Origin: Promethearchaeota archaeon
GTDB taxonomy: Archaea; Asgardarchaeota; Lokiarchaeia; Sigyniarchaeales; SOKP01
Direction of reading: 5' to 3'
Assembly (NCBI GenBank): GCA_016839745.1
Contig: JAEOTS010000116.1
Location: forward strand, 1 to 64,000
DNA length: 64,000 nt
Shown here piece after piece: positions 2,893 through 38,725 of this stretch (position 1 is the first letter of the stretch; every line of letters starts with the position of its first letter). The notes under the pieces are model-generated. The model searched no databases, was not told the origin of the DNA, and worked only from the letters and a program-made list of their open reading frames with translations. Position numbers and translations under genes: made by a program.

Positions 2893-4350
2893 TTATAAGT
2901 TTTTCGTTACACGCTTTTTAAGATATACATCAAGCATGGCAGGCATAAATATTCTCTTTAAAGTTTTGTAAACTTTTGCATTTCCTGGATTTGGATCTTT
3001 TACATCTACAAATCTTACCATTCTCTCAATAGCACTTTCAATACTACTATATTTTTTACACCCATAAAAACCTAGTATAGCTGCACCCATAGCTGCGCCA
3101 TCTTTGATTTCTGGCACGAAAACTTTTCTTGATAGGATATCAGCAAAGATTTGTACCCACAGTTCACTATTCATTGCTCCACCATCCACTCTCACTTCTG
3201 CTGTTTTCACTCTCGCCATTCCTTCTACTAATCCTAAATACATATTAGCACTTAATGCAGCAGATTCCATAATCGCTCTTGCCATATGACCTCTATTGTG
3301 ATTCCATCCTAAACCATGAATAGTACCCTTTCGAAATATATATAATGGAAGAAACAATAATCCTTCGCTTCCAGGGGGAATTTTTGCTGCTTCTGTCGTT
3401 AAAATATCATAAACATTAAGATTTTTTTCTTCACTTTCTTTTACTTGTAATTGTGAAAAATTTTCCCTAAACCACTTAAAAGCAGTTCCCGTTCCGGGAA
3501 TTATACCTTCTATGTTCCACTTATCTTTTATAACAGAAGGCCATGAGAAAATTGGGAAATCTCCCGCTGGATCTATAGGTCTATCTACAACAATATCTAC
3601 AAATGTACCAGTACCGGTCGTCACTTTTACTTGTCCCTCATTTATAACTCCTAAACCTAATGCTGAACATTGTTGATCTCCACCACCTAAAACAACAGGA
3701 ATATTTCTTTTTAAACCTAGAGAATCGGCAGATGTGCTGAGTAATTCACCAATTACATCTCCAGGTGTATAAAGTTCTGGCCATAAATCTAATGGTAAAC
3801 CATATGCTTCTGCAAGCTCATCATCCCACTTTAGAGTAGATCTACTTAAAATCCCCATAATTCCATTTTGGGGATCAGTTGCGCATATCCCACATAATTT
3901 CATATAGATATAAGTATCAGCATTTATTATTTTTGCAGCTCTACTAAATAATTCAGGCCTATTTTTTTTAATCCATAATATTTTAGGGATTGCTCTTCTT
4001 AAATCCGTCTCTTTTTGCCATTCTTTACCACTAGATTCTTCTCTTTCATCCATCCATGTTAAAGCAGGGTGTAAAACATTTCCTTCCTTATCAATAATTG
4101 TAGTCGTACCACGAAGGAATGAAGCCGAAATCCCTATCACATCATCTGGATTAACTTTTTTCATAACCCTATTACAAGTGTTTTTAATAGCATTCCACCA
4201 AATTTGTGGATCTTGCTCCGAAATACCAACTGGTTGGTTAACTATGGGATACTCCTCATAAGCTTTAGCAATTTCATTCCCATTAATATCAAATATAATC
4301 GAGCGAGCACCAGTTGTTCCCACATCGAAAACACATATTTTATCACTCAT
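2893..4350 (-). CDS. FGGY-family carbohydrate kinase (xylulokinase/glycerol kinase-like)
   Basis: CVFDVGTTGARSIIFD N-terminus, WMDERE, VDGGAMNSELWVQIFADIL. Confidence 0.9.
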   Translation of the reverse strand: MSDKICVFDVGTTGARSIIFDINGNEIAKAYEEYPIVNQPVGISEQDPQIWWNAIKNTCNRVMKKVNPDDVIGISASFLRGTTTIIDKEGNVLHPALTWMDEREESSGKEWQKETDLRRAIPKILWIKKNRPELFSRAAKIINADTYIYMKLCGICATDPQNGIMGILSRSTLKWDDELAEAYGLPLDLWPELYTPGDVIGELLSTSADSLGLKRNIPVVLGGGDQQCSALGLGVINEGQVKVTTGTGTFVDIVVDRPIDPAGDFPIFSWPSVIKDKWNIEGIIPGTGTAFKWFRENFSQLQVKESEEKNLNVYDILTTEAAKIPPGSEGLLFLPLYIFRKGTIHGLGWNHNRGHMARAIMESAALSANMYLGLVEGMARVKTAEVRVDGGAMNSELWVQIFADILSRKVFVPEIKDGAAMGAAILGFYGCKKYSSIESAIERMVRFVDVKDPNPGNAKVYKTLKRIFMPAMLDVYLKKRVTKNL

Positions 4351-4403
4351 ATAATCACTTTTTAATATTTTTTAACTAAATTTATTAAATTTATCATTCA
4401 ATT

Positions 4404-5672
4404 TTAGAGTGTCTTATTTAATATTTCAGACACATCCATTATTTTAATCTTTTCTTTTTCTTCTTCTTTCAGGCCATAACCTAATCCTAATTCGCATAGA
4501 GGGCACGCTGACACAAAAAGCTCTGCCCCTGTTTCTTTTAATTCATCTACTCTAATTGTAGCTTCTTTAATAGCCAATTCCCTGTCAGCCCAATGAGCTG
4601 TCCCGCTCCATCCACAACAATGAACATATTCCTTATTATAGATCGGCTCAACAATTTCTAAACCTTGAATTTTACTAAGGATGTCCCTAATAGACGAAGT
4701 ATCGTTCAGATTTCTTGCGATAAGACAAGGATCGTGAATGGTTACTTTTTTCAATTCATTAGGTACACTTTTAGTAGGTATAATTTTTCCTTCATCTAAT
4801 AATTGTGCTATGTATTCTACAATGTGGATTATTTTTTTTTCAATCTTGATTCCTAAGCTTTCGTATCTCTTCGTTACCGTTAGGATACACCCAGGACAAT
4901 CCGATATGACAATTTTAGCTCCAGTAGATTCAATTAATTCTTTATTTTTTACTGCGAAGTCTTTAGCAGTTTGTAAATCTCTAATATTAAATGAAGGTCC
5001 CCCACAACATATTTTTTTATCCAGATTTGTTGAAAATTTTACTCCAGCTTTCTTTAATATCCCAATATTTGCTTTTATTACTTCTGGGAATTTCATTGAC
5101 TCGCAGCCAAGATAATAGAATACTTCATCATTTCCATCTGTTTCAATATTTTCAATCTCATTTTCTTTATATGTTTCATAGATATTGTATCCCTCAATCG
5201 TATTTGATTCCTTCAATTTTTTGATTTGTTCTTTACAATAATCTGGCATTAAACCCTTTTCATTTAACTCATCTCTTACCGTTTCCAAAAGCGATACAAC
5301 AGAAAAATCGAAAGGACACCAAATCTTACACGATTCCTCATTTGTACATTTATACATTAGATCAATAAAATCCTTATTTTCTTCCTTATAAGGATCAATT
5401 TTCCCAATAGATAAATAATACCCTATTTTTGACTTATAACCAGGGCTCATTGATTCTTTTTGTGCTGCTTGTAATGTTCCACAATCAAACCGGCAAAGAT
5501 TTGGGCAAAGCGCACAATTTATCAAATTATCAATATCTGCTTTATGATCTCCTTCCGGAAAGAAATTCTTTTTTACGCGACTTATATTTTTAATGACTTT
5601 TCTCTTTACTTCTTTTTCAACCTTGTTAAGTTCTTCAATGAACCATCTATATTTATCTAAGAATTCTTGCAT
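4404..5672 (-). CDS. (Fe-S)-binding protein with two CCG domains (GlpC/heterodisulfide-reductase-D-like)
   Basis: CALCPNLCRFDC and CTNEESCKIWC clusters; CCGGPS and CCGWSG CCG motifs. Confidence 0.85.
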   Translation of the reverse strand: MQEFLDKYRWFIEELNKVEKEVKRKVIKNISRVKKNFFPEGDHKADIDNLINCALCPNLCRFDCGTLQAAQKESMSPGYKSKIGYYLSIGKIDPYKEENKDFIDLMYKCTNEESCKIWCPFDFSVVSLLETVRDELNEKGLMPDYCKEQIKKLKESNTIEGYNIYETYKENEIENIETDGNDEVFYYLGCESMKFPEVIKANIGILKKAGVKFSTNLDKKICCGGPSFNIRDLQTAKDFAVKNKELIESTGAKIVISDCPGCILTVTKRYESLGIKIEKKIIHIVEYIAQLLDEGKIIPTKSVPNELKKVTIHDPCLIARNLNDTSSIRDILSKIQGLEIVEPIYNKEYVHCCGWSGTAHWADRELAIKEATIRVDELKETGAELFVSACPLCELGLGYGLKEEEKEKIKIMDVSEILNKTL

Positions 5673-10595: not shown

Positions 10596-11558
10596 TTAAC
10601 TGCTCTTAATTTCTATTTCTATTCCTTTTTGTTCAAGCTTTTTTTTATTTGCAACAAGTTCTCGACCAGCAATTTTATCCAAAATGTAAATTAAATTGCC
10701 TCCTTTTTCCGAATACAACTGACCATAAGATATTGGAACATCTGGAGAAGGTTCATTTAGTATTGATTCAGTAACAGACATAGTTTTGCGTTCTCCGTTA
10801 GCTAATAATAATACTGTTTTTGCCTTATATACTAGCTCAGCACCCATACTAATAGCAAAATGAGGACACTCATCTTCTGAGTTAAATTGTCCATCGATTA
10901 CTGCATTACTTACGGTATTTTTATCAAGTTTTATTAACATGACTTTGCTTCCTTCAAAGGGAATTCCTGATTCATGGAATGCAACATGTCCACGTCCTCC
11001 AACACCTATAATTTGTAAATCAATACCACCAGATTTTTCGATTTTTTGGGCATATCCCTCTAAAATTGTTTCCTGAATCCAGCTTAAATATTCAGAAGAT
11101 GCTTTATCTTTAATAACAATTGATTTTCCTGAATCTGTTCCTAATTCAGTCCAATCATCAGGATGGGATGATAGTTCTTGCATCAGTATTTTTTGATCGA
11201 TTAAACAAGCATAAGGTAAAGTTGTTTCAATAAATTTATTGTTAAGAAGCCCAAAGAATTCTTTAATCATAAAGTAGCAATAACTTTGTGGGTGTATAGT
11301 GCGTTGTTGAGCATTCTCTCCCGGAAGACCAATATATTCATCGAGATTAAAACTGCGAACTCTACTACTGTCGAATTTATTAGCATTTGCCATTTGGGCA
11401 AGTTCTTTGTATACACCCGTTGGTGAATTTCCTGTTGCAAGCCCTAAAACATATAAACTCTTATCTTGTAATCCTTGAATAATTTTTTCTTTGACAATTT
11501 CTGCTGCAACCTTACTCAACTCTTCGAAATTATCTGTAATAATTACATTAATCGCCAT
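10596..11558 (-). CDS. nagB: glucosamine-6-phosphate deaminase/isomerase family
   Basis: GLATGNSPTGVYKEL, FNLDEYIGL, GVGGRGHVAFHE; longer than typical because of an internal insertion. Confidence 0.85.
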   Translation of the reverse strand: MAINVIITDNFEELSKVAAEIVKEKIIQGLQDKSLYVLGLATGNSPTGVYKELAQMANANKFDSSRVRSFNLDEYIGLPGENAQQRTIHPQSYCYFMIKEFFGLLNNKFIETTLPYACLIDQKILMQELSSHPDDWTELGTDSGKSIVIKDKASSEYLSWIQETILEGYAQKIEKSGGIDLQIIGVGGRGHVAFHESGIPFEGSKVMLIKLDKNTVSNAVIDGQFNSEDECPHFAISMGAELVYKAKTVLLLANGERKTMSVTESILNEPSPDVPISYGQLYSEKGGNLIYILDKIAGRELVANKKKLEQKGIEIEIKSS

Positions 11559-11663
11559 AAATAGTACCTTGAGAAATAATTTATACTAAAAAAAGTTCTG
11601 TTTAATAAAAATTTAATTATATGAGCTTAGCAAATCACTTTTATGTTATCTCCTTTCGAGAGC

Positions 11664-11682
11664 AAAAAATTATTTAAATTTC
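11664..11682 (+). promoter_or_regulatory. putative archaeal TATA box for a near-leaderless glmS transcript
   Basis: AAAAAATTATTTAAATT about 25-30 nt upstream of the ATG at 11703; no Shine-Dalgarno between them. Confidence 0.4.
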
Positions 11683-11702
11683 TAAAAATTTTCTATTTAT
11701 AA

Positions 11703-13556
11703 ATGTGTGGTATTTTTGGAATAGTTACAAAGAATCAAGAAATCTCTGTAGGTAAAGTTGTCTTCGAAGGAATAAAGCGTTTAGAATACCGTGGATATGA
11801 TTCTTGTGGTATTGTTTCACTTTACAATTCAAAACTATTTATTAAAAAAGAAGCTGGAAAAATTGATGAAATTCATAAAAAGATCAAATTAGATGAATTT
11901 CCTAGTGGTTCAAAACTTGCGTTAGCCCACACAAGATGGGCTACTCATGGAGCACCCACTAAACAAAATAGCCATCCACATTTAGATTGTCTAAACAAGA
12001 TTGCAGTTGTACATAATGGAATAATAGAGAATTTTTTAGAATTACGAAATGAACTCACTTCTCGAGGACACACATTTAAATCTGAGACTGATTCTGAAGT
12101 GATTCCCCATTTAATTGAAGATTTTATGAAAAGTGGTAATAATCTTAAGGATGCTATTATTAACGCATTAAAAAAATGCAAAGGAGCGTACGCAATTGCA
12201 GTTTGTCAGATTAATAACCCCGATTTAATCGTAGTTGCTCGAAAAGAATCTCCTTTAATAATTGGAATAGAAGAAGGAAAAACAACTTATTGTTCTTCAG
12301 ATATTCCTGCTTTTTTACCATATACAAGAAAATGCTATATAATGGAAGATGACGAACTTGCTGTTTTGAAAGCGGGAGAAGTAAAATTTTTTGATCTTAA
12401 AAACGATAACGAATTGATTAGAAAAGAAATGCAAAACATTGAATGGAATATTGATGCAGCAGAAAAGGGAGGTTACGAGCATTTTATGCTAAAAGAAATT
12501 TACGAGGAACCAAATGCATTAAGGTTTACTATGAAAATTTCAGACCAGCTATTAAGCAAGTTTGCAAACGCTTTAATCTCAGCAGATAATATATATATTA
12601 CTGCAGCGGGTACATCTTATCACTCAGCGTTAGCAGGAAAATTTATAATTTCTAAATTTCTTGGTAAACACATTCAGGATATAGAATGTTCTGAATTTGA
12701 GACTCAGCTAAACGGTAATTTGAAAGAAAATTCCGTAATTATTGCAATTTCACAATCAGGTGAAACCATTGACACGATAGAAGCGATTAGATGGGCAAAA
12801 AATACAAAATCTGTTAAAATTTTAACAATTACTAATGTTGTAGGCTCATCAATTACAAGGTATTCCGATCATGTGATCGTTACAAATGCAGGACCTGAGA
12901 TTGGTGTTGCAGCAACAAAAACATATAGCACGCAAGTTCTTGCTCTTGCGTTGATAGCGGTATCAATTGCAAAAACTAGAAAAATAATATCTAATGAAGA
13001 AATAACAAAATATCACGATGCTTTAGCTGGAATTCCTAATATCATTGAAAAATTCCTTGAGAAAAATGTTGATTTAATCAAATATATTGTAAACAATTTA
13101 GAAAAAAATTTGAATTATTTCTTTTTGGCAAGAGGGATATCAATTGCCACTGCCAAAGAGGGAGGTTTAAAATTGAAAGAAGTTGCTTGCCGGTTTATCG
13201 AAGGTTATTCCGCAGCTTCTGCTAAACATGGACCAATTTCTTTAGTACGAGAAGGATTTCCTATCATTTTTATCGCTCCTCCTGACGAGACATATAATAG
13301 ATTAGTTGGGAATGTAATGGAGTTCAAAGCTAGAGGTGGTAGAATTATTTCTGTTGTTGTGGAAAGTGATGTAAAGATAACAAAATTAAGTGATATTACA
13401 ATTCGAATTCCTCAACCCGCTGATAAATTTTATAATCTATTCAGCCCAATAACTTTCATGCCAGCCTTACAATTATTAGCCTATTATGCTGCCTTAGCTC
13501 ATGATCTAGACCCTGATAAGCCATTAAATCTTAGTAAGACTGTGACAGTTCATTAA
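11703..13556 (+). CDS. glmS: glutamine-fructose-6-phosphate aminotransferase (isomerizing)
   Basis: MCGIFGIV N-terminal Cys, RWATHGAPT, SIS domains (TSYHSA, ISQSGET), C-terminal LSKTVTVH. Confidence 0.97.
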   Translation: MCGIFGIVTKNQEISVGKVVFEGIKRLEYRGYDSCGIVSLYNSKLFIKKEAGKIDEIHKKIKLDEFPSGSKLALAHTRWATHGAPTKQNSHPHLDCLNKIAVVHNGIIENFLELRNELTSRGHTFKSETDSEVIPHLIEDFMKSGNNLKDAIINALKKCKGAYAIAVCQINNPDLIVVARKESPLIIGIEEGKTTYCSSDIPAFLPYTRKCYIMEDDELAVLKAGEVKFFDLKNDNELIRKEMQNIEWNIDAAEKGGYEHFMLKEIYEEPNALRFTMKISDQLLSKFANALISADNIYITAAGTSYHSALAGKFIISKFLGKHIQDIECSEFETQLNGNLKENSVIIAISQSGETIDTIEAIRWAKNTKSVKILTITNVVGSSITRYSDHVIVTNAGPEIGVAATKTYSTQVLALALIAVSIAKTRKIISNEEITKYHDALAGIPNIIEKFLEKNVDLIKYIVNNLEKNLNYFFLARGISIATAKEGGLKLKEVACRFIEGYSAASAKHGPISLVREGFPIIFIAPPDETYNRLVGNVMEFKARGGRIISVVVESDVKITKLSDITIRIPQPADKFYNLFSPITFMPALQLLAYYAALAHDLDPDKPLNLSKTVTVH

Positions 13557-26582: not shown

Positions 26583-26954
26583 GTGAATTCTATGAATGGA
26601 AAGAAGAAATTTTATATTTTACTCGGATTTTTCCAATTAGTATTGGTAGCTATTGTATTCCTAAGCGTAGATGGCGTTATAACGATGGTAGCGGCACAAA
26701 CAGAGAGTTTTGATTATTATAATTCTCCAACAGCGGCAATTTTGGCAGTTTCCGCAGCAATATCTCTCGCTGCATCAGTATTAGGAAGTGCTATGGCTAT
26801 AAGAACAGTAGGTACAGCAGCTATATCGTCCTTATCCGAGAGAGAAGAAAGTTTTTTTAAGGCATTTTTAATCGTAGCATTATGCGAAGCTTTAGCCGTG
26901 TATGGTTTAATTGTAGCAATCCTATTCTGGACAAAAATACCTAATCCGATATAA
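26583..26954 (+). CDS. A/V-type ATPase proteolipid subunit K (c)
   Basis: AAISLAASVLGSAMAIRTVGTAAI hairpin and ALCEALAVYGLIVAILFW with membrane Glu; first gene of the ATPase operon. Confidence 0.9.
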   Translation: MNSMNGKKKFYILLGFFQLVLVAIVFLSVDGVITMVAAQTESFDYYNSPTAAILAVSAAISLAASVLGSAMAIRTVGTAAISSLSEREESFFKAFLIVALCEALAVYGLIVAILFWTKIPNPI

Positions 26955-26995: not shown

Positions 26996-28051
26996 ACGAG
27001 TATAATTATTCCATCTTATGCGTATACATTTATCAAAATCGATTATTTAAAGAATTTAATTATTGATGATGATACTTTAAGAAGATTGAAAACTGTATAC
27101 GATATTGAAACTTTTATAGACATCATAAAACCTTTTTATCCGAATATAGAGATAAAGGAATATACTATAGAAGAAATTGAAGGAGTTTTAATCAATAATT
27201 ATATTCAACTAATTGGAAAAGTTCAACAGTTTTCTCCTCTTAACATGAGAAAGTTCTTAAAAAACTATCTGATGAAGTTCGAAATTCAAAATCTCAAACA
27301 AGTTATCATCAGTTTAATTATAGGGATGGGACAAGAGGAAAGGAGAAAAAATATTAACTTCTTAGTTGAGGTCTATTTAGATAACACAGAATTCATTGAA
27401 GATTTGCTTAAACTCACCACTTTAGATGAGATTCAAATATTTCTTAAAAAATCTTTATATAATATTCCTATTAGAGAAGGGATCCTTTACTTTAAGAAAA
27501 ATAAAGAAATTTTTGTCCTGGAGGCATTTTTAGATCAACTATATTTTAATCATCTCAGAGAGCAATTAAAGAATTTAAATAAAAAAGAAAAAATAATGAT
27601 CTCATTATTTGTGAAGTATAAAACTGAGATTTATAACTTAAATGTGATTTATAGAGGAATTAAAAATAAAATCGATAGAAAATTACTATCACAATTTTTA
27701 GTGAATGATTATTTATTTTTAAATGAAGATAAACTCAACCATTTGTTAAATCTTAATACTCCTGACGATTTTCTCTCAAATGTGGAGTTATATCTTAAGA
27801 ATATAACAAAAACAGAGCAGATTTTTATCACATTAAAAATTGACCCTAAGCATATAATTAGGTCAATAGAACAATTTTATATTACTTATTATTTCAAGAA
27901 ATTTAAAATTAAAATCGACGATATTAACTTTTTCACAATATCAAAAATTTTGGAAGTCTTAATAAAAAAGGAAAAAGAAATCAAGTTTGATATCCTACCA
28001 AGAGTTATTAAAATCATTCATAAGAAGTTTAGAGGATTAAAAAAGTTATAG
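26996..28051 (+). CDS. A/V-type ATPase subunit C (d-like); start proposed at ACG 26996
   Basis: operon position; in-frame upstream codons encode SYAYTFIKIDYLKNLI, matching the conserved subunit-C N-terminus (YxYxxxRVRAMKSKL); SD GGTGAT at 26984-26989. Confidence 0.8.
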   Translation, partial: TSIIIPSYAYTFIKIDYLKNLIIDDDTLRRLKTVYDIETFIDIIKPFYPNIEIKEYTIEEIEGVLINNYIQLIGKVQQFSPLNMRKFLKNYLMKFEIQNLKQVIISLIIGMGQEERRKNINFLVEVYLDNTEFIEDLLKLTTLDEIQIFLKKSLYNIPIREGILYFKKNKEIFVLEAFLDQLYFNHLREQLKNLNKKEKIMISLFVKYKTEIYNLNVIYRGIKNKIDRKLLSQFLVNDYLFLNEDKLNHLLNLNTPDDFLSNVELYLKNITKTEQIFITLKIDPKHIIRSIEQFYITYYFKKFKIKIDDINFFTISKILEVLIKKEKEIKFDILPRVIKIIHKKFRGLKKL

Positions 28052-28104: not shown

Positions 28105-28416
28105 ATGGAAATTTTTAAATGGGTTGAAGAAATCGAAAAAATTTATGATGATTTAATTGAGAAAGCTAAAAAAGAAAGTTTAGAAGATATCCGAAAAGCA
28201 AGGACTTCTCAAGAAAAAGAAATGGAAAATACAATTTATAAAAATCAAGAAATTATTAACGAGGCGCTAGCTAAAGTTTCCAAAGAGGTTAGTGAGAATT
28301 CTGAAAATTTTGAAGAATTATTAAAGAATTTATGTAATAAGATTGAAAAATATTACCAAGAAAATAAAGAAGGATTATCAAGTATACTATTTGAAAAATT
28401 AGGTTTTGATTTTTAA
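28105..28416 (+). CDS. A/V-type ATPase peripheral-stalk subunit (H/G-like coiled coil)
   Basis: short charged coiled coil at the expected operon position. Confidence 0.65.
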   Translation: MEIFKWVEEIEKIYDDLIEKAKKESLEDIRKARTSQEKEMENTIYKNQEIINEALAKVSKEVSENSENFEELLKNLCNKIEKYYQENKEGLSSILFEKLGFDF

Positions 28417-28733
28417 TGCCGGATGCAAAAATACATGTCATTGGTTACGACGAGATAGTCTCCTTGCTTGGTCTTCTAGGTATCGAAGGGACTATAGCCA
28501 ATAATAAAGAAGAATTTATCAAAAAATTCGAGAATTTGATAAAAAGACCATCAATTGTAATGATAATTATAAATATGGAGTTGCCAGACGATACTTTTGA
28601 ATATATTATGGATTTTAAGATTAATAATAGGATTCCTTTTATATATCTTTTACCCGATATCTTTCAACCAGATATTAGAAATCACGATAAATTATTTGAT
28701 AGGATTCATGAATTAATAGATGAAATTATTTAA
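28416..28733 (+). CDS. A/V-type ATPase subunit F
   Basis: IHVIGYDEIVSLLGLLGIEG..., typical F-subunit N-terminus and size. Confidence 0.8.
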   Translation: MPDAKIHVIGYDEIVSLLGLLGIEGTIANNKEEFIKKFENLIKRPSIVMIIINMELPDDTFEYIMDFKINNRIPFIYLLPDIFQPDIRNHDKLFDRIHELIDEII

Positions 28734-28749: not shown

Positions 28750-29472
28750 ATTAGTGAAGGACAAGAAATTAAGGGAAGGTTTGGGAAATTAGGGTTGTAT
28801 TTAATAAGCCAAGCAGAAAATGATATAAAGACCATTAATCAACAAACTCTCTTTCAAATAGCAGAAGCTAAGAAGAAAAACAAGGAGAGAACTAGAGAAA
28901 GTTCTTTAAAGATGAAAGCGCACTTTAATGAAACCTTTAACAAATTATTAAATAGCTCTCTATCTTCAACTCTTTTAAAAATTAAAGAAGAAGTATTGAA
29001 ATCTAAAAATAAGTTAATGTTAGAGCTTATTTCTGACTTAACAGATTTAATAAACAATAAAATAAAAAACAACTATCCAAATTACACTAAGTTTATACTA
29101 ACAATTCTTAAAAATATTAAATATATTGTTGATAAGCCACCAGAGATTATTATTACATTAAATTCAAGAGATTACGACTTTTTTAGCAATAATAATGAAC
29201 AAATAGAAGAAATTTTTAAGAATAAAGTCAAGCTAAAGAAATCGGAGAAAAAATTCACAGGTGGTTTTATTTGCGTTGTATTGTCAGGAAATATTTCATA
29301 TAATTATACGATTGAAAATCAGTTAAAAAAAAACACTTCAATTATAGAAATTGAGTTTTCAAAGATTTTTTCAGATTCAGAATCAGATATTAAAAAGCTT
29401 GAAAACGATTATGTTCAATTTATACAAAATCAAAAGTTAGCTGTAGATAATTACTTAAAGGATTATGAATGA
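28750..29472 (+). CDS. A/V-type ATPase subunit E; start proposed at ATT 28750
   Basis: helical N-terminus and operon position; frame open to 28744; SD GGTGAT 28739-28744 lies 5 nt before ATT. Confidence 0.75.
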   Translation: MSEGQEIKGRFGKLGLYLISQAENDIKTINQQTLFQIAEAKKKNKERTRESSLKMKAHFNETFNKLLNSSLSSTLLKIKEEVLKSKNKLMLELISDLTDLINNKIKNNYPNYTKFILTILKNIKYIVDKPPEIIITLNSRDYDFFSNNNEQIEEIFKNKVKLKKSEKKFTGGFICVVLSGNISYNYTIENQLKKNTSIIEIEFSKIFSDSESDIKKLENDYVQFIQNQKLAVDNYLKDYE

Positions 29473-31306
29473 AACTAAAGAAGAGATTAAATCCGGATAC
29501 ATTTCATCCATAAATGGAACCTTAATAGAGATTAAGGGCTTAGAGGACCAAGTTCGACTTCATGATTTAGTAAGAGAATCTAAGCATAAAATTTTAGGTG
29601 AAGTAATCCAAATTTATTCTGATCATGTGATTGCAAAAGTGTTTGAAAACACTTTTAATCTAAAACTAAATGAAGAAGTACTAAGTTTACAAGAACCCCT
29701 ATCAATGGAATTAGGTCCGGGATTATTAGGTAAAATTTTTGATGGAATTCAGAGACCACTCGAAGCAACTTTTTTAAAGTCTGGAGGGGGTGGTTTTTTA
29801 GAGAGAGGTGCAGATATTCCTTCCTTATCAAGGAAGAAAAATTGGTCTTTTAAGCCATTACGGAAGATTGATGATTTTGTAAGCACGGGTTATGTTATAG
29901 GAGTTGTTCAAGAAACTCAACTTATAGAACACAAAATAATAGTACCAGTAGGAGTTTTTGGAAAAATAACTTATATAGCAGAGGAAGGGGAATATACTGT
30001 AATTGATGAAATTTATCGCCTAAAAAGAGGATCAAAAGAAAAATCCTTTAATATGATTCAGAAATGGCCAATTACTAAACATAGACCTTATAAGGAACGA
30101 GATTATCCTCAAGAACCGCTAGTAACAGGAATGAGAGTGATTGATTTATTATTTCCAATAGTAAAAGGAGGCACGGTAGCCGTTCCTGGTGGTTTTGGAA
30201 CTGGTAAAACAGTTATTCAACAATCTCTAGCAAAATGGTGTAATGCCGACGTCGTCGTTTATATAGGCTGTGGGGAGCGAGGAAACGAGATAGCAGATGT
30301 TTTAAAACAATTCTCTGAAATCACTGATCCTAAGACTGGTCATTCGTTACTAGAACGAATTGTTATCATTGCGAACACTTCAAATATGCCTGTTTCCGCT
30401 CGAGAAGCGAGTATTTTTTCTGGAGTTACTATTGGAGAGTATTACAGAGATATGGGTTATGATGTTGCCGTTTTAGCTGATAGCACTTCAAGGTGGGCAG
30501 AATCTCTGAGAGAAATCTCGGGGTTATTAGAAGAAATGCCCGCTGAAGAAGGATATCCGGCCTATTTACCTTCAAAAATTTCTAGTTTTTATGAAAGAGC
30601 CGGAATTGTTAATCTTTATGGGGATGAAGATTTAGGAAAAGAGAATTATGGTTCTTTAACTATTATCGGTTCAGTATCACCTCCTTCAGGAGATTTCAGT
30701 GAACCCGTAACTTCAACAACTAAGCGTTTTGTTCAAGCATTTTGGGCATTAGACGCAAATTTAGCTTACTCCAAGCACTACCCTGCAATAAATTGGCTAA
30801 ACTCGTACTCAAAATATCCTGAATCCATTTCTGATTGGTGGTATGAAAGAGATATTTATTGGCCTGAGATAGATATAGATTGGTATGAGTGTCGAAAACA
30901 AATAAATTACATTCTATCTCAAGAGAATGAACTAAAAAATATTGTCCAATTAGTTGGGGAAGAAAATTTACCTGAAAATCAACAATTTATCCTCTTTATT
31001 GCTAGAATAACGAGAAATAGCTTTTTAATTCAAAATGCATTTGATTCGATTGACTGCTTTACAGGGATTAAAAAATTAATTGGGTTCGTGAAACTTATTT
31101 TATTATTGTTTAACGAAGGTAAGCAATTAATAAATCAAGGATTTTTGATCGAAGAAATCAAGGAACTTAAAGTTGTAAATGATATCCTTAGAATTGGTCG
31201 ATCAGTTCCTAACGATGATTTTAAAAGATTAGAAAAATTAAGAACTAAACTGATTAATGAAATAGAAACTTTAAAGTTATTACATGGTGTTTTTAAGAAG
31301 AAATGA
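29465..31306 (+). CDS. A/V-type ATPase catalytic subunit A (copy 1)
   Basis: GGFGTGKT P-loop, [51 protein letters not shown]. Confidence 0.96.
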
Positions 31307-32694
31307 GCGTCATTTATAAAAAGATAAAGAAAATTATTGGACCTTTAGTGTTTTTAGATAATAAACATGATGTACAATATGGTGAGATCGTCAAAATCAG
31401 AACGGACGATGGTAAAGAACGAACGGGCCAAGTTGTGAAAATGGACGAGAGTACAATAACTATCGAAGTATTTGAGGATACAGCTGGACTGTCTTCCGAA
31501 AATTCTACAATTACCTTCACTGAAGATTCATTTAAAATAAAAATATCTAGTGATATGTTTGGAAGGGTGTTTAACTCCTTAGGAAAACCGATTGATATCA
31601 ATACAAAACAAGTATTAGAATCTGATATTTTAACTGAAATAGAAAGAGATATAAATGGTTTACCTATTAATCCATTTGCTCGAGAATATCCTTCAGAAGT
31701 TATTCAAACAGGAATCTCTGTGATAGATGGTCTTTTTACGTTAATTAGAGGGCAAAAACTCCCAATTTTTAGCGATCAAGGAATGCCCCATAATTTATTA
31801 GCAGCACAAATTGTTACTCAAGCCAAAGTTTTAACCGAAGAACCATTCTTAATAATTTTTTGCGGGATAGGAATCATCCAAGATGAAGCAATTTTTTTCA
31901 TGAAGCGTTTTCAAGAGAGCGGAAACATTCAGAATATTATTTCTTTTATCAACTTTGCTGATGATCCAATAATGGAAAGATTAATTGTTCCTCGTGTAGC
32001 TTTAACTACCGCGGAATATTTTGCATTTGAAAAAGACATGCATGTTCTCGTAATTTTAATTGACATGACCAATTACGCAGAAGCATTGAGAGAGTTAAGT
32101 TCAGCTAAAGAAGAGATTCCTAGCAGGAAAGGATATCCCGGATATTTATATACTGATTTTGCATCTCTCTACGAAAGAACTGGAAAAATTAAGGGCAAAA
32201 AGGGAACTATAACACAAATTCCGATTCTAACAATGCCAGGAGGAGATATAGCCCACCCTATTCCGGACACTACTGGATATATTACCGAAGGTCAATTAGT
32301 TCTAAATCGCAATTTGGACAAAAAAGGAATCTATCCTCCGCTTGAGGTTTTAGCTTCTATTTCCCGGTTAATGAAAGATGCTATTGGTAAAGATACTACT
32401 AGGGAAGACCATGCGGATGTTAGTTCTCAATTATTATCTTCTTACTCCGCTGCTCTTGAAGTTAGAGACCTTATATCAATTGTTGGAGAAGATGGATTAA
32501 GTTTTAATCAGAAAGCATTATTGAAATTTGGAGAAGTTTTCGAGCAAACTTTTTTAAATCAAAGTCATTCTGAGGAAAGAGATATTAAATCAACGCTAGA
32601 TATAGCTTGGAAGGCTTTATCTCATATACCAAGGCATCAATTATTTAGGATTCATCAAGAATTAATCGATAAATATTATGTTGGAGAGGTGTAA
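31303..32694 (+). CDS. A/V-type ATPase subunit B
   Basis: [85 protein letters not shown]. Confidence 0.96.
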
Positions 32695-33339
32695 CCAAAA
32701 GCGTCTTTTCGTGAATTCCGGCCCACCAAAACTAATCTACTCTCGCTGCAGAAGAGATTAAATTTTGCGGTCAAGGGTGAAAACTTTTTGAAATTTAAAT
32801 TAGAGCAATTAATGGTTGAGATCAAAGGAAATTGGGAAAATTATTTAAAGAGTCGTGAAATCTTTATCGATTTATACAAAGAAACTATGATTAAACTTCA
32901 TCAAACTTATAAAGAAATGGGAAAAAGAGACTTTAGCTTAGTCAGTAAGTTGAGTAAACTTCAATACAAACCTACGATAGATGTAAAGTATTTTAAAAAG
33001 ATTGGATCGTTAATTCCTGTAATTGAATATAAGTTGATAAAGGAGGAATTACTTCCTGCTTATTCATTTGAAAATTCAAGTCATTACCTTGATGACTTAA
33101 TAATAGTTTTAGAAATTTTTTTTGAACAACTCATTATCTTTGCAAAATTAGAAGATATAATGTTAAAGATCTCTCTGTCTTACAAGAAAATAAACCGAAG
33201 AATTAGAGGATTAAAAAATGTGATTATTCCTGAATTACAACTCGAAATAAAAAAAATAAAAGAGATATTAGAAGAAAACGAAAGAGAAAACTATGTTCGC
33301 TTAAAGAATACAAAAGACTTGATAACTAAAGAAATTTAA
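32695..33339 (+). CDS. A/V-type ATPase subunit D; true start unresolved (ORF track starts at 32788)
   Basis: codons upstream of 32788 encode FREFRPTKTNLLSLQKRLNFAVKGENF, the conserved D-subunit N-terminal helix, in frame. Confidence 0.8.
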   Translation, partial: PKASFREFRPTKTNLLSLQKRLNFAVKGENFLKFKLEQLMVEIKGNWENYLKSREIFIDLYKETMIKLHQTYKEMGKRDFSLVSKLSKLQYKPTIDVKYFKKIGSLIPVIEYKLIKEELLPAYSFENSSHYLDDLIIVLEIFFEQLIIFAKLEDIMLKISLSYKKINRRIRGLKNVIIPELQLEIKKIKEILEENERENYVRLKNTKDLITKEI

Positions 33340-33356: not shown

Positions 33357-35681
33357 ATGGCAGAAAAAAGTGTTATGGTATTATTTAGGGTTAATATTAA
33401 TCAAAATTACAGGGATCTCCTCCTACAACATCTATCTCAACTATATTTGGTTCACATTAAAACTAGACCAGAAGAAAGTGCGAAATTTGAAAGGGATGAT
33501 GTTTTATTTGAGAGAATTAATAACTTGAGTCAGAGTTTAGAATCCTTATTTAAAAGTCTTGATATTACAGAATCTGATTTCCAAAAATTAAGTTTTGAAC
33601 CTGATGAGAGGAAAAAATTTGAAGTGAAAGATATTGACGATTTAATAAACCAACTTGTAAATGAAATTAATTATTATTCCAATCGGATTAATGAGTTAAA
33701 AAATAATCGTACTTCTATTGAAATTGAGCTAGAAAAAATCAACACAATCCATGGAAGTTATCTATTTTTAGAGAAATACAAGTTAACTCGAGATAAATTA
33801 ATGAAATTCAAACTTTTGGAATTTAAAGCCTTTACAACATTCGCAAAGAATCTAGAAAATATTGAAAATATCTTTGAATTCTCGCATTTTCCAAATTTTC
33901 TTCATTATGATTATCTAAGTAATGAAAGAATCGCATTTTTTATAATCTATCCTAAGGAAAACGAGGATGAATTTAGAGAAAGGATACGGCTAATTCACGC
34001 CGAAGAGGTACCGATTCTAAAAAAGTATTTACTCTCTGATGGGATAAACTTTCCTCGAATAGCAAAAGAAATCAAGTTTGTAATTACTTCTTTAAACAAA
34101 AATCAAAAGGAATTAGATAGATTAAGGGACGATCACCTCCTTCTGTTTGCTGCGGCTTATGAGATAGTAAAAAATCTGGAAGAATATAACTGGGTTTCTC
34201 ATCAATTCGAAGAATTATCCTTAAATCGATTAAGTTTGAGTTTTTACCTGCCTAAAGGCAAAGAGAAAGAAATCCAACAAGGGTTAATTGAGAAATTTGA
34301 AGATAAAATTACAATCGATTCGATCGATATTACAAAAAGTAAATTTGTAAGTCTGAAAGAGGATAGGGATCACGTACATTCTGGGAAGTCTAAAGATGCA
34401 AAAGAAGGAACAATTTCAAAAGAAGAAACAGCAGTGAAAGAAAAAGAAGAAGAAAAAAAAGATTTAAGACATTCTGCTCCTACTATCATGAGGAATAATT
34501 TCTTTGTGAGACCTTTTGAAACAGTTACTAAAATGTATGGGGTTCCTGCGTATTCAGAAATTGATCCGACCCCAATTATTGCTATAACATTTCCAATTTT
34601 GTTCGGGATAATGTTTGGAGATATTGGACATGGTCTTGTCTTAATTATTGCAGGTTTAGTTGGTGCGATAATTTATAGAAACAAAAAAGGAAAGGATTTT
34701 TTAAATTTTTGCTGGATCATTCTATATTGTGGTGTTGGAGCGGTGATAATTGGATTTCTTTACGGTGAATTTTTTGGAATGCACGAAATTAAGTTATTTA
34801 ATACAGTTTTCATGCATTTAGAACCTATGACGATTCCTATATTGAATATTACATTGTACAATCCCTTAGATAATATAATGTCAGTTTTTAAGTTTGCAGT
34901 CTTGGTTGGAGTGTTCCACCTTAATTTGGGCTGGTTCGTTCAATTTTTAAATTATTGGAAACAAAAAAGAAAATTCTTAGGTTTTACTGATTCCTTAATG
35001 AAAATATTGTTATTGACTGGAGGAACTATTCTAATTTTTACTTTTGGATTTGACGTTTATTCTTGGTTAGAACCTCAAGTAATATTCAACTTTGGAGCCT
35101 TTACATTTAGTACCTTTCCCATTTTATTGCCGCTAGTTCCAGGTTTACTCTTGATTGTGTTAAAACCTTTAGGTAAAGTATTACATATATCTTATTTGAG
35201 CGAAGAATCTGTTGGCGGACTTATTGGAGAAGGTACAATGGAGACTTTTGAAACGCTACTATCAATTATGAGTAACGTAGCGTCTTATATAAGATTACTA
35301 GCGTTAGCCCTAGCACACATATCATTAATGGTTGCAATCACAGCAATGGGTAATTTAGTTCAAGGTGAGGGTATAGTTAACGATATTATCAATCTCGTAG
35401 GTTCTATATTTGGGAATATGATTGTTATTCTGCTAGAAGGATTATTAGTCTTTATAAATGCTATCAGACTTCATTTCTATGAATTTTTCTTTAAATTTTA
35501 TCAAGGTAGTGGTGTAAACTTCATTCCATTCTATTCAGACGATATATATTCAGTAATAAATTTCAAGATAAGTAGCATTAAAGATGTAATATCCGAAGAA
35601 ATAGATAGAGAAATCGAGTCAAAAATAACTCAAAAAGACATAATGGAAGCAGAAAAACTTGTTTCTAAAAAATATATGTAA
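33357..35681 (+). CDS. A/V-type ATPase subunit I (a)
   Basis: AYSEIDPTPIIAITFPILFGIMFGDIGHG; SNVASYIRLLALALAHISL; membrane half and coiled-coil N-half. Confidence 0.95.
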   Translation: MAEKSVMVLFRVNINQNYRDLLLQHLSQLYLVHIKTRPEESAKFERDDVLFERINNLSQSLESLFKSLDITESDFQKLSFEPDERKKFEVKDIDDLINQLVNEINYYSNRINELKNNRTSIEIELEKINTIHGSYLFLEKYKLTRDKLMKFKLLEFKAFTTFAKNLENIENIFEFSHFPNFLHYDYLSNERIAFFIIYPKENEDEFRERIRLIHAEEVPILKKYLLSDGINFPRIAKEIKFVITSLNKNQKELDRLRDDHLLLFAAAYEIVKNLEEYNWVSHQFEELSLNRLSLSFYLPKGKEKEIQQGLIEKFEDKITIDSIDITKSKFVSLKEDRDHVHSGKSKDAKEGTISKEETAVKEKEEEKKDLRHSAPTIMRNNFFVRPFETVTKMYGVPAYSEIDPTPIIAITFPILFGIMFGDIGHGLVLIIAGLVGAIIYRNKKGKDFLNFCWIILYCGVGAVIIGFLYGEFFGMHEIKLFNTVFMHLEPMTIPILNITLYNPLDNIMSVFKFAVLVGVFHLNLGWFVQFLNYWKQKRKFLGFTDSLMKILLLTGGTILIFTFGFDVYSWLEPQVIFNFGAFTFSTFPILLPLVPGLLLIVLKPLGKVLHISYLSEESVGGLIGEGTMETFETLLSIMSNVASYIRLLALALAHISLMVAITAMGNLVQGEGIVNDIINLVGSIFGNMIVILLEGLLVFINAIRLHFYEFFFKFYQGSGVNFIPFYSDDIYSVINFKISSIKDVISEEIDREIESKITQKDIMEAEKLVSKKYM

Positions 35682-35716: not shown

Positions 35717-36226
35717 ATGAAAAATGAGAATAACCAGAGAGGAAGATTTGTAAAAACATTAATTCTAATCATTTATTTAGTTTTTGTTGTTTTCCTCTTC
35801 TATATTTTATTTATATTTGGGATTAATCCAGTTATTATAGTATTATTACTCATATGTATATCTTCAATCATTCTAGGAATTTTCTTTAGACAAAAAAAAA
35901 AATCAATTTATTCAGAATTATATCCTGATAAAAAACGAAATAAAATTCAGCGTCCTCCTAGAAAGTTAGAATTGAACATTGAAACAGATTCTGAGAAATT
36001 AGTACAAAAAAAATTGAGAAATGTGGACCTGAATTTTAAATATCGCAAATCTCTTATCAATAAATGCGAAAACTGCGGAATGATGATAACTGGTTACAAG
36101 AAAAGGTGTCCTACATGTGGTAAGGATTTTGAATTAAAAGAAGTAATCAAGAAATGCAAAACATGTGGAATGATGATTCCCAAATCTACAAAAAAGTGCC
36201 CAATCTGCGGAACGCGAACATTATAA
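35717..36226 (+). CDS. membrane protein with tandem zinc ribbons
   Basis: two TM segments, then CENCGMMI..CPTCG and CKTCGMMI..CPICG. Confidence 0.7.
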   Translation: MKNENNQRGRFVKTLILIIYLVFVVFLFYILFIFGINPVIIVLLLICISSIILGIFFRQKKKSIYSELYPDKKRNKIQRPPRKLELNIETDSEKLVQKKLRNVDLNFKYRKSLINKCENCGMMITGYKKRCPTCGKDFELKEVIKKCKTCGMMIPKSTKKCPICGTRTL

Positions 36227-36260: not shown

Positions 36261-38090
36261 ATGGTTTTAGCTATTAACGAATCCAAGGAAGGATTTATCT
36301 CTGCGGTTAATGGTTCATTAGTGGAAATAAAAGGCCTAGAGAATGATGTCAGACTTAATGACTTAATAAAAATAAGCAATCATAATTTTTTATGTCAAGT
36401 AATCCAAATATTTTCCAACCGCGTTATTGCTCAATCCTTTGAAAACACTAACAGTATTAAATTGAACGAGAAAGTCGTCAGCCTTAAAGAACCTTTATCT
36501 ATGGAATTAGGTCCTGGGTTAATAGCAAATGTCTTTGATGGAATACAGCGACCACTAGACCTTACTTTCGATTTTTTTCAAGAAGGAAGATTAAATAAAG
36601 GACTTGAATTTCCATCTCTTTCAAGAACGAAAAAATGGCACTTTGTTCCAACTAGAAAAATAAATGAGATCGTGGATAGTGGTGACGAGATTGGAACGGT
36701 TCAAGAGACTCCTACTTTATATCATAAAATAATGGTGCCACCTGGAAAATCAGGCGTATTATTTTCAATTGTAGATGAAGGTGATTACACTATTATTGAC
36801 GATATCTATAGTTTAAAAAGTGATAACAAAGAGGAATCGTTTTGCATGCTGCAAAAATGGCCAGTTACAAAGAGAAAGCCTTTTAGTGAAAAAGAGCAAC
36901 CTAGCGAGCCGTTGTTGACTGGTGTGCGGATAATTGATTTACTATTTCCTGTAGCAAAAGGTGGTACTTTTGCTGTTCCAGGAGGATTTGGAACAGGTAA
37001 AACAATTATCCAACAGAACATCGCTAAGTATTGCAGTGCAGATTTAATTGTCTTCATAGGTTGCGGGGAACCTGGGAATGAGATAGCCAACTTCCTTAAA
37101 CAGTTTACTGAAACAATTGATCCTGATACTGGAAGACCGTTACTGGACCGGATCGTCCTTATAGTAAATACTTCAAACATGCCTGTATCAGCACGAGAAG
37201 CAAGCCTTTTCTCAGGCATAACAATCGCAGAATATTACAGAGATATGGGTTACGATGTTGCGGTTATTGCAGATAGCATATCAAGATGGGCAGAATCTTT
37301 AAGAGAGATCTCGGGATTATTAGAGGAAATGCCTGCTGAAGAAGGTTATCCCGCTTATTTACCATCGAAATTATCAAGTTTCTATGAACGAGCTGGTGTA
37401 TTTACGACTCTAGGGCACGATCCTAAGGGGAAAAAAAGAAAAGGGTCTATATCTATTATAGGATCAATATCTCCCCCCGCAGGAGATTTTAGTGAACCAG
37501 TTACCTCCGCTACAAAACGCGTGGTTCAAGGAATCTGGGCTCTAGATCCAAAATTAGCATATCTGAAACATTATCCCGCTATTAGTTGGATAAATTCCTA
37601 TTCAAATTACCCTGAATATTTAGCAGATTGGTGGGAGAAGATAGATAAAATTTGGCTTGATTTAAAACTAAATTGGTTTGAATGTAGAAAGCAGGTAAAT
37701 GAGATATTAGCAAAAGAAAACGATCTGAAATACATTACTCAATTACTTGGACAGAAAAATTTAGCTGAAGATCAAAAATTAGAACTATTTACAGCGGATC
37801 TTATAAGAAATGCTTTTTTTATTCAAAACGCTTTCAATGAGGTCGATAATTTTACGAGTAGTAAAAAAATGTTAAGTCTCATCAAGGTTATTCTTCTCTT
37901 ATACAATAAAAGCAAATCGCTTATAAAACGAGGTTTTATAATGAACGATAGAAAATGTGATGAAGTCCTCAACGAGATCATGCGAATTAGCCATTATGTT
38001 CTTAACGAAGATTTTGAACCAATTGAAAAGCTAAAGAAGAACATTAGTAATGATGCAGTGAGCTTGGTTTACACAACTCAACATAAGTAG
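36261..38090 (+). CDS. A/V-type ATPase subunit A paralogue (copy 2, divergent)
   Basis: full-length homologue of 29465..31306; [43 protein letters not shown]. Confidence 0.93.
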   Translation: MVLAINESKEGFISAVNGSLVEIKGLENDVRLNDLIKISNHNFLCQVIQIFSNRVIAQSFENTNSIKLNEKVVSLKEPLSMELGPGLIANVFDGIQRPLDLTFDFFQEGRLNKGLEFPSLSRTKKWHFVPTRKINEIVDSGDEIGTVQETPTLYHKIMVPPGKSGVLFSIVDEGDYTIIDDIYSLKSDNKEESFCMLQKWPVTKRKPFSEKEQPSEPLLTGVRIIDLLFPVAKGGTFAVPGGFGTGKTIIQQNIAKYCSADLIVFIGCGEPGNEIANFLKQFTETIDPDTGRPLLDRIVLIVNTSNMPVSAREASLFSGITIAEYYRDMGYDVAVIADSISRWAESLREISGLLEEMPAEEGYPAYLPSKLSSFYERAGVFTTLGHDPKGKKRKGSISIIGSISPPAGDFSEPVTSATKRVVQGIWALDPKLAYLKHYPAISWINSYSNYPEYLADWWEKIDKIWLDLKLNWFECRKQVNEILAKENDLKYITQLLGQKNLAEDQKLELFTADLIRNAFFIQNAFNEVDNFTSSKKMLSLIKVILLLYNKSKSLIKRGFIMNDRKCDEVLNEIMRISHYVLNEDFEPIEKLKKNISNDAVSLVYTTQHK

Positions 38091-38122: not shown

Positions 38123-38725
38123 TTAGGGTTTGAACCATTCAAAGAAGTAGTAACTCATAGTTAGAGGATTAGCGATAACGAACTTCTTCCTTACTGATGT
38201 AGCCAAACGTCCTGCACGAACCATATCAATAGCGGTTATTTTTGCGTCATTAGGCAAAACATGAGCTATAAATGGTGAGTGCTCTAATCCCGGTCCTTTT
38301 TTGTATACTACAAAATCAGCACCAAACTTTAAACCGGGTCGGGGGATGTACCCTTTTTTTCTTAAATCTTGATAAATTACAAATTTTTCTTCAAATTTAT
38401 GGTGATTATTTTTACTTATATCATAGAATTCATCATGTGAGTAGTATTTATCTAGTTTAGGGTCGTAAATAGTAATTTTATCATTTTTTAACAAATACAT
38501 TGCTTCTATTAGGGATAGCTCCGAAGGTTTAGAAAAATATTCTAATCGAGGTTTGCTTATTCCAACTGGAGACCCAAAAAACTTTTGTTTTACATATAAA
38601 TACGAAGCAAAGAGAGGATTAAAAACAATAACGCGATTATTGATAAATTTAGTTGGAATTTTTTCTGGGATGTCTTTTTCGTCTATATCCTCCAGTGAAA
38701 TAGGAGATTCTTTTTCGTCAGTCAT
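38123..38725 (-). CDS. endA: tRNA-splicing endonuclease
   Basis: GLKFGADFVVYKKGPGLEHSPF...SVRKKFVIA carries the catalytic Tyr/His/Lys. Confidence 0.9.
   Translation of the reverse strand: MTDEKESPISLEDIDEKDIPEKIPTKFINNRVIVFNPLFASYLYVKQKFFGSPVGISKPRLEYFSKPSELSLIEAMYLLKNDKITIYDPKLDKYYSHDEFYDISKNNHHKFEEKFVIYQDLRKKGYIPRPGLKFGADFVVYKKGPGLEHSPFIAHVLPNDAKITAIDMVRAGRLATSVRKKFVIANPLTMSYYFFEWFKP

Follow-up and report, generated by a model that had tools for sequence, protein, structure and literature searches.

An invariant arginine-to-proline change suggests that Lokiarchaeia have retained a crippled A subunit to serve their rotary ATPase as a brake or spacer

The single A/V-type ATPase operon in the window analysed here (the whole stretch of 64,000 nucleotides) is followed by a second gene for the A subunit, A2, in which the arginine after the catalytic glutamate is replaced by proline. 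A2 is a conserved paralogue of the canonical catalytic subunit A1, neither a pseudogene nor a recent duplicate, and the invariance of the replacement suggests that evolution may have retained a crippled subunit to brake the motor or to act as a spacer in it. We give roughly even odds (about 0.5) to the reading that A2 is a pseudo-catalytic A paralogue kept for its altered nucleotide site and serving as a brake in mixed A1/A2 heads.

Open reading frames together with Pfam and NCBIfam matches place the genes in the order K-C-(H)-F-E-A1-B-D-I, followed by a zinc-ribbon membrane protein and then A2; this is the order that had been predicted, with the H assignment coming from position. In the whole 3.5 Mb assembly (about 89% complete), PF00006 has three matches, in A1, B and A2, so that the assembly encodes no other rotary-ATPase head, and this one has a single B gene as had been proposed. 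The genes are:

26583..26954, + strand: K/c, membrane rotor subunit (PF00137)
27086..28051, + strand: C/d, central-stalk adaptor (PF01992)
28105..28416, + strand: H/G, putative peripheral-stalk subunit (assigned from its position and from conservation in relatives; no Pfam family reaches its cut-off)
28416..28733, + strand: F, central stalk (PF01990)
28795..29472, + strand: E, peripheral stalk (PF01991)
29465..31306, + strand: A1, canonical catalytic A subunit, 613 aa (ORF, Pfam, NCBIfam)
31303..32694, + strand: B, sole B subunit, arginine-finger motif SISRLMK kept (ORF, Pfam, NCBIfam)
32788..33339, + strand: D, rotor shaft (PF01813)
33357..35681, + strand: I/a, membrane stator (PF01496)
35717..36226, + strand: membrane protein with a double zinc ribbon, 169 aa, encoded after I and before A2 (PF12773/PF13240)
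36261..38090, + strand: A2, second A-subunit gene, 609 aa (ORF; PF00006, PF16886 and PF22919; NF003220)
38123-38725, opposite strand: tRNA-intron endonuclease gene, convergent with A2

A2 starts 34 bases after the zinc-ribbon gene, outside the overlap that joins A1 and B, and a Memo-like gene comes after the endonuclease gene. The zinc-ribbon protein adjoins I in most genomes of the family, with or without A2, and is possibly an undescribed ATPase accessory. We considered it as a partner of A2 and rejected this; its presence in relatives both with and without A2 makes it no obligate partner.

By sequence and fold, A2 is an A-subunit homologue. It shares 61% identity and 80% similarity with A1 over 603 aa, with no rearrangement, and it matches the A/V-type ATPase subunit A model NF003220 over its full length with 699.6 bits (cut-off 470), in line with the predicted second, divergent, full-length A subunit. 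Both genes miss the stricter equivalog cut-off of TIGR01043 (972; A2 695, A1 756), so this cut-off does not separate A1 from A2. A2 carries the A-specific bulge (PF16886, ATP-synt_ab_Xtn) and the C-terminal domain PF22919, and does not pass as a subunit B, scoring 135.9 with the B model NF003235 (cut-off 349) and keeping its P-loop. Its AlphaFold model (pLDDT 88.5, pTM 0.89) has an ordinary A-subunit fold, with the E. hirae A chain 3vr6_B as best fold match (Z 53.6, rmsd 2.1 over 586 residues).

We aligned 37 A2 subunits with 52 A1 subunits of the same family and 29 outgroup A subunits from outside it. The positions within the two genes of the window that matter here are:

36981..37004, + strand: intact P-loop GGFGTGKT of A2 (K247 in 37/37; T/S at 248 in 35/2)
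37071..37073, + strand: A2 codon 271, CCT, Pro in place of Arg
30278..30280, + strand: A1 codon 272, Arg, counterpart of A2 Pro271
37206..37208, + strand: A2 codon 316, Leu, where all family A1 have Ile (a mild change)
37755..37757, + strand: A2 codon 499, Lys where A1 is acidic, at the site of the first acidic residue in the DELSEED-like rotor-contact loop

The site after the catalytic glutamate is proline in all A2 subunits (37/37) and arginine in every family A1 (52/52) and every outgroup sequence (29/29), the motif reading GCGEPGNE in A2 and GCGERGNE in A1 of the window. The original prediction had named this proline in place of an invariant arginine; it had also allowed that the A2 residues might prove normal in many active A subunits, and the proline is absent from the normal A subunits compared. 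All four proline codons are used (CCT 17, CCA 12, CCG 5, CCC 3), so that the amino acid has been kept while the codon drifts. Of the 131 columns that are invariant within both the A1 and the A2 sets, only two differ between them, this Arg-to-Pro change and the Ile-to-Leu change at codon 316. A1 and the outgroups share 128 conserved columns; at least 95% of A2 sequences retain 102 of these, and the arginine alone is lost in every A2. Beyond the family, the GEPGNE pattern was found in only 2 other of 227 Asgard genomes, in frames unlike ATPase, and across 80 loci of A2 relatives in prokaryotes proline occurred at the site only in 4 Lokiarchaeia loci.

Alignment with an Enterococcus A subunit (L152), in which the catalytic glutamate is residue 261, places the proline at E. 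hirae A-262. We take E. coli F1 beta-R182, a gamma-phosphate ligand, to be the counterpart of E. hirae A-R262, the two being matched by motif. In the E. hirae enzyme, R262 contacts an incoming ATP at its terminal phosphate, and E261 has a key part in starting hydrolysis (PMC6371843), which agrees with the earlier placing of the change at the nucleotide site. In E. coli, both beta-R182Q and beta-R182K abolish Pi binding and lose ATP synthesis; the R182Q F1-ATPase runs at 0.020 as against 42 umol/min/mg in the wild type, with MgADP binding unaffected (PMC3268026). For the change from arginine to proline at this site we found no measurement in the literature, and proline differs from glutamine, lysine and alanine.

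The remainder of the nucleotide pocket is kept. The lysine and the threonine or serine of Walker A (GxxGxGKT), the catalytic glutamate and the Walker B aspartate are each present in 37/37 A2 subunits, so that the P-loop and the glutamate, both read as intact in this gene, are conserved throughout. The equivalents of E. hirae K238, T239 (serine in two A2), E261, R303 and R318 (the other two conserved arginines), D329 (the Walker B aspartate) and Q503 (on the adenine side) are likewise kept. A second change that had been pointed out, DSTSR to DSISR, is real in this genome but does not stand as a hallmark of A2: the position is variable across A2 (Ile 21, Thr 15, Met 1; n = 37), and DSISR is also present in L087, the sole A subunit of its genome and in other respects a normal one. 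Since A2 lacks in 37/37 cases the arginine of GERGNE that marks a competent catalytic subunit, and otherwise belongs to the A family, we class it from its sequence as a pseudo-catalytic variant and not as a competent A subunit.

A further difference, absent from the first reading of the sequence, lies in the loop that meets the rotor. Residue 499 of A2 falls in the alignment column of E. hirae A-D480, which opens the segment 480-DSLSDND-486; the authors of the E. hirae work regard this segment as the DELSEED-equivalent loop in contact with the D shaft (PMC3879392). This column is Lys or Arg in 32/36 A2, Glu in 50/51 A1 and Asp or Glu in 28/29 outgroup sequences. Mutations adjoining the DELSEED-like loop in E. 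hirae alter shaft affinity and ATPase rate (PMC3772951, PMC3879392). We also looked for a matching signature in the D subunit and rejected it, as no D residue separates genomes with A2 from those without, indicating that the same kind of shaft serves both.

These data suggest a model in which the P-loop and the adenine pocket of A2 would still let it bind nucleotide, but it would have no grip on the gamma-phosphate or Pi and would thus hydrolyse or synthesise ATP at no useful rate. As the operon has a single B and a single D, and the assembly no other B, A2 presumably shares B and shaft with A1, which would yield mixed (A1/A2)3B3 heads; conservation of its residues would also fit A2 as a component of the mature head. 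In such a head at least one of the three catalytic sites would be idle and the motor slowed or parked, so that the A2:A1 ratio would throttle the motor, limiting ATP waste or ion leak in energy scarcity, and the lysine in the loop that touches the shaft would adjust the way in which the rotor comes to rest at the A2 site. F1 mutants without catalytic residues still rotate, 10^3 to 10^4 times more slowly (PMC5380711), so that 'inactive' may mean 'very slow' for A2. Work on an engineered V1 shows that the motor can be tuned allosterically by giving its head a further pseudo-active site that binds nucleotide (PMC10624635). A tentative extension, to which we would give a shade less than even odds, is a natural catalytic ring that combines active A subunits with a second kind, in which the phosphate site is disabled and the rotor contact carries a changed charge. 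The composition of such a ring would set speed or parking, and the ring would recently have replayed the ancient origin of the non-catalytic subunits.

The same single B and D could also serve a head built from A2 alone. According to this explanation, (A2)3B3DF would replace the A1 head in starvation or storage, as a plug that seals the membrane part without ATP turnover, and mixed rings would not form. It would accord with the ring and pocket residues kept in A2, with the separate position of its gene behind a 34-base gap, away from the A1-B overlap, and with an altered shaft-contact charge that could suit a parked rotor. However, A1 and A2 are about 60% identical with conserved contacts, and pure rings would need a sorting mechanism, of which there is no indication, making this doubtful compared with mixed heads.

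A2 is found in 37 of the 65 genomes of the same Lokiarchaeia family and in 6 of its 9 genera, as pattern and protein searches agree, and the named relatives that carry it are 'Candidatus Lokiarchaeota/Lokiarchaeia' MAGs. Most of these genomes share the arrangement I, zinc ribbon, A2, tRNA endonuclease, Memo; in several relatives without A2, the zinc ribbon and the endonuclease follow I with nothing or an unrelated gene in between. Since many relatives without A2 have an otherwise intact operon, A2 is not required by the ATPase as such. No remnants of A2 were seen in this slot in two A2-less relatives (G030 and G070), which have another gene there. This gene (in L071 of G030, about 10800-11880, and in L196 of G070, about 4160-5370) looks to be of the FBPase/inositol-phosphatase type.

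Two genomes, G076 and G029, have A2 at a distance from A1 and B. G076 (L202, L203), a single 3.3 Mb contig, has its operon split between D and I, with E-A1-B-D and I-zinc ribbon-A2 about 0.86 Mb apart. Tight co-expression is thus not obligatory, and such locations could be expected if A2 were a free or transient protein outside the mature head, as an assembly chaperone, a holder of the B subunit or a nucleotide sensor. The divergence between A1 and A2 is greatest at the very C-terminus, which would also fit this explanation. Conservation of A-subunit residues throughout, combined with a directed change in the rotor loop, would however be hard to explain without contact with the rotor, and we consider a free A2 unlikely.

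Could A2 be active, as an isoform whose kinetics or direction have changed and in which other local adjustments offset the lost arginine? Its catalytic glutamate, Walker A and Walker B are intact, and in F1 an arginine introduced nearby recovers part of the phosphate binding (PMC3268026). A compensating basic residue near the pocket was considered; none was seen in the A2 alignment, where conserved Lys or Arg is gained at only two positions, 431 and 499, neither of which lies at the phosphate pocket as judged from sequence. Proline being in addition an unlikely stand-in for arginine, we think an active isoform highly improbable.

As to its evolution, distances among A2 subunits track those among the A1 subunits of the same genomes (r = 0.92, slope 1.10; 34 genomes), and between close relatives dN/dS ranges over 0.06-0.28 in A2 and over 0.06-0.16 in A1. 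A2 is under purifying selection, much like A1. On the question raised with the original prediction, whether A2 is a conserved paralogue or a recent duplicate, a duplication confined to this genome was rejected given the presence of A2 across the family and its divergence alongside A1; the opposite outcome envisaged there, an A2 missing from relatives and evolving as a pseudogene, is not what the genomes show. Although A2 is patchily present in the family, a decaying duplicate or an assembly artefact is barely credible in view of full-length open frames in dozens of independent genomes, conserved synteny, dN/dS well below 1, and a proline kept invariant through all four of its codons.

In the A-subunit tree, all A2 subunits form one group except those of two genomes (G028 and G058), where A1 and A2 of the same genome pair up. 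The best tree sets this pair apart, and monophyly of all A2 is not rejected (p-AU 0.416). In these two genomes A1 and A2 are 81% identical overall, as if homogenised, and the stretch around residue 271 is still A2-like, with a local low in A1-A2 nucleotide identity at codons 271-300 (0.78 in G028 and 0.73 in G058). This pattern is suggestive of selection against gene conversion over the proline, with which it would fit, but it is not proof. The presence of A2 needs about six changes on the B tree, implying that A2 has been lost or transferred on occasion.

Canonical A subunits (NF003220; E. hirae NtpA, T. thermophilus AtpA, P. horikoshii A) share with A2 the full length, all four A-subunit Pfam domains, the fold, the P-loop, the catalytic glutamate, the Walker B aspartate and the adenine pocket. 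They differ in having the gamma-phosphate arginine (E. hirae R262) where every A2 has proline, and in a DELSEED-like loop that starts with Asp or Glu where most A2 have Lys or Arg; A2, moreover, is a second gene beside a canonical A1. The duplication behind catalytic and non-catalytic subunits has been dated to before LUCA (PMC10656485). Like the non-catalytic B and F1 alpha subunits, A2 is a paralogue of a catalytic subunit whose catalytic capacity appears lost, its membership of the ring being presumed; unlike B, it is young (one archaeal family) and A-like, keeps the P-loop where B lost it, and presumably fits A positions only. The E. coli beta-R182Q and R182K proteins have lost the equivalent arginine (PMC3268026), but are laboratory mutants, whereas A2 has a natural, conserved proline in a dedicated paralogue. 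The engineered V1 likewise has a pseudo-active nucleotide site in its head (PMC10624635), but one that was restored by design, lies in B and speeds the motor, whereas that of A2 is natural and lies in the catalytic subunit.

The heads of rotary ATPases are usually taken to contain three identical catalytic subunits. Known inhibitor-type controls of these enzymes are epsilon, zeta, IF1 and reversible disassembly. If built into the head, A2 would be a composition-based brake, unlike these controls, and a young natural example of a catalytic subunit turning non-catalytic, a step inferred to be pre-LUCA for alpha/beta and A/B. Its hosts, the Lokiarchaeia, are relatives of the ancestors of our own cells, and energy conservation in them bears on models of eukaryote origin. 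We found no published description of the A2 paralogue in the open-licence literature, an absence that is no proof of novelty, and term searches of the main texts of works on ATP-synthase evolution (PMC10656485), Asgard transporters (PMC7997004) and a rotary-ATPase database (PMC11738941) gave no mention of it.

Some minor observations concern the other ATPase genes of these Lokiarchaeia. PF00006 has no match in five genomes (G034, G069 and G085, also G012 and G064), which either are without a rotary ATPase or have the operon in assembly gaps; the first three are 92-98% complete, two of them in about ten contigs. Two genomes (L046 of G013 and L057 of G031) have a second, A2-less ATPase operon beside the one with A2, which may be contamination. 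The single A subunit of six genomes (L073, L074, L078, L085, L196 and L212; G033, G035, G044, G052, G070 and G084) is interrupted in frame by some 500-550 aa, an insert that looks like an intein and of a kind seen in no A2 gene. It sits directly after the P-loop GGFG(T/S)GK and, in the four cases read closely, ends in HN before T(V/M).
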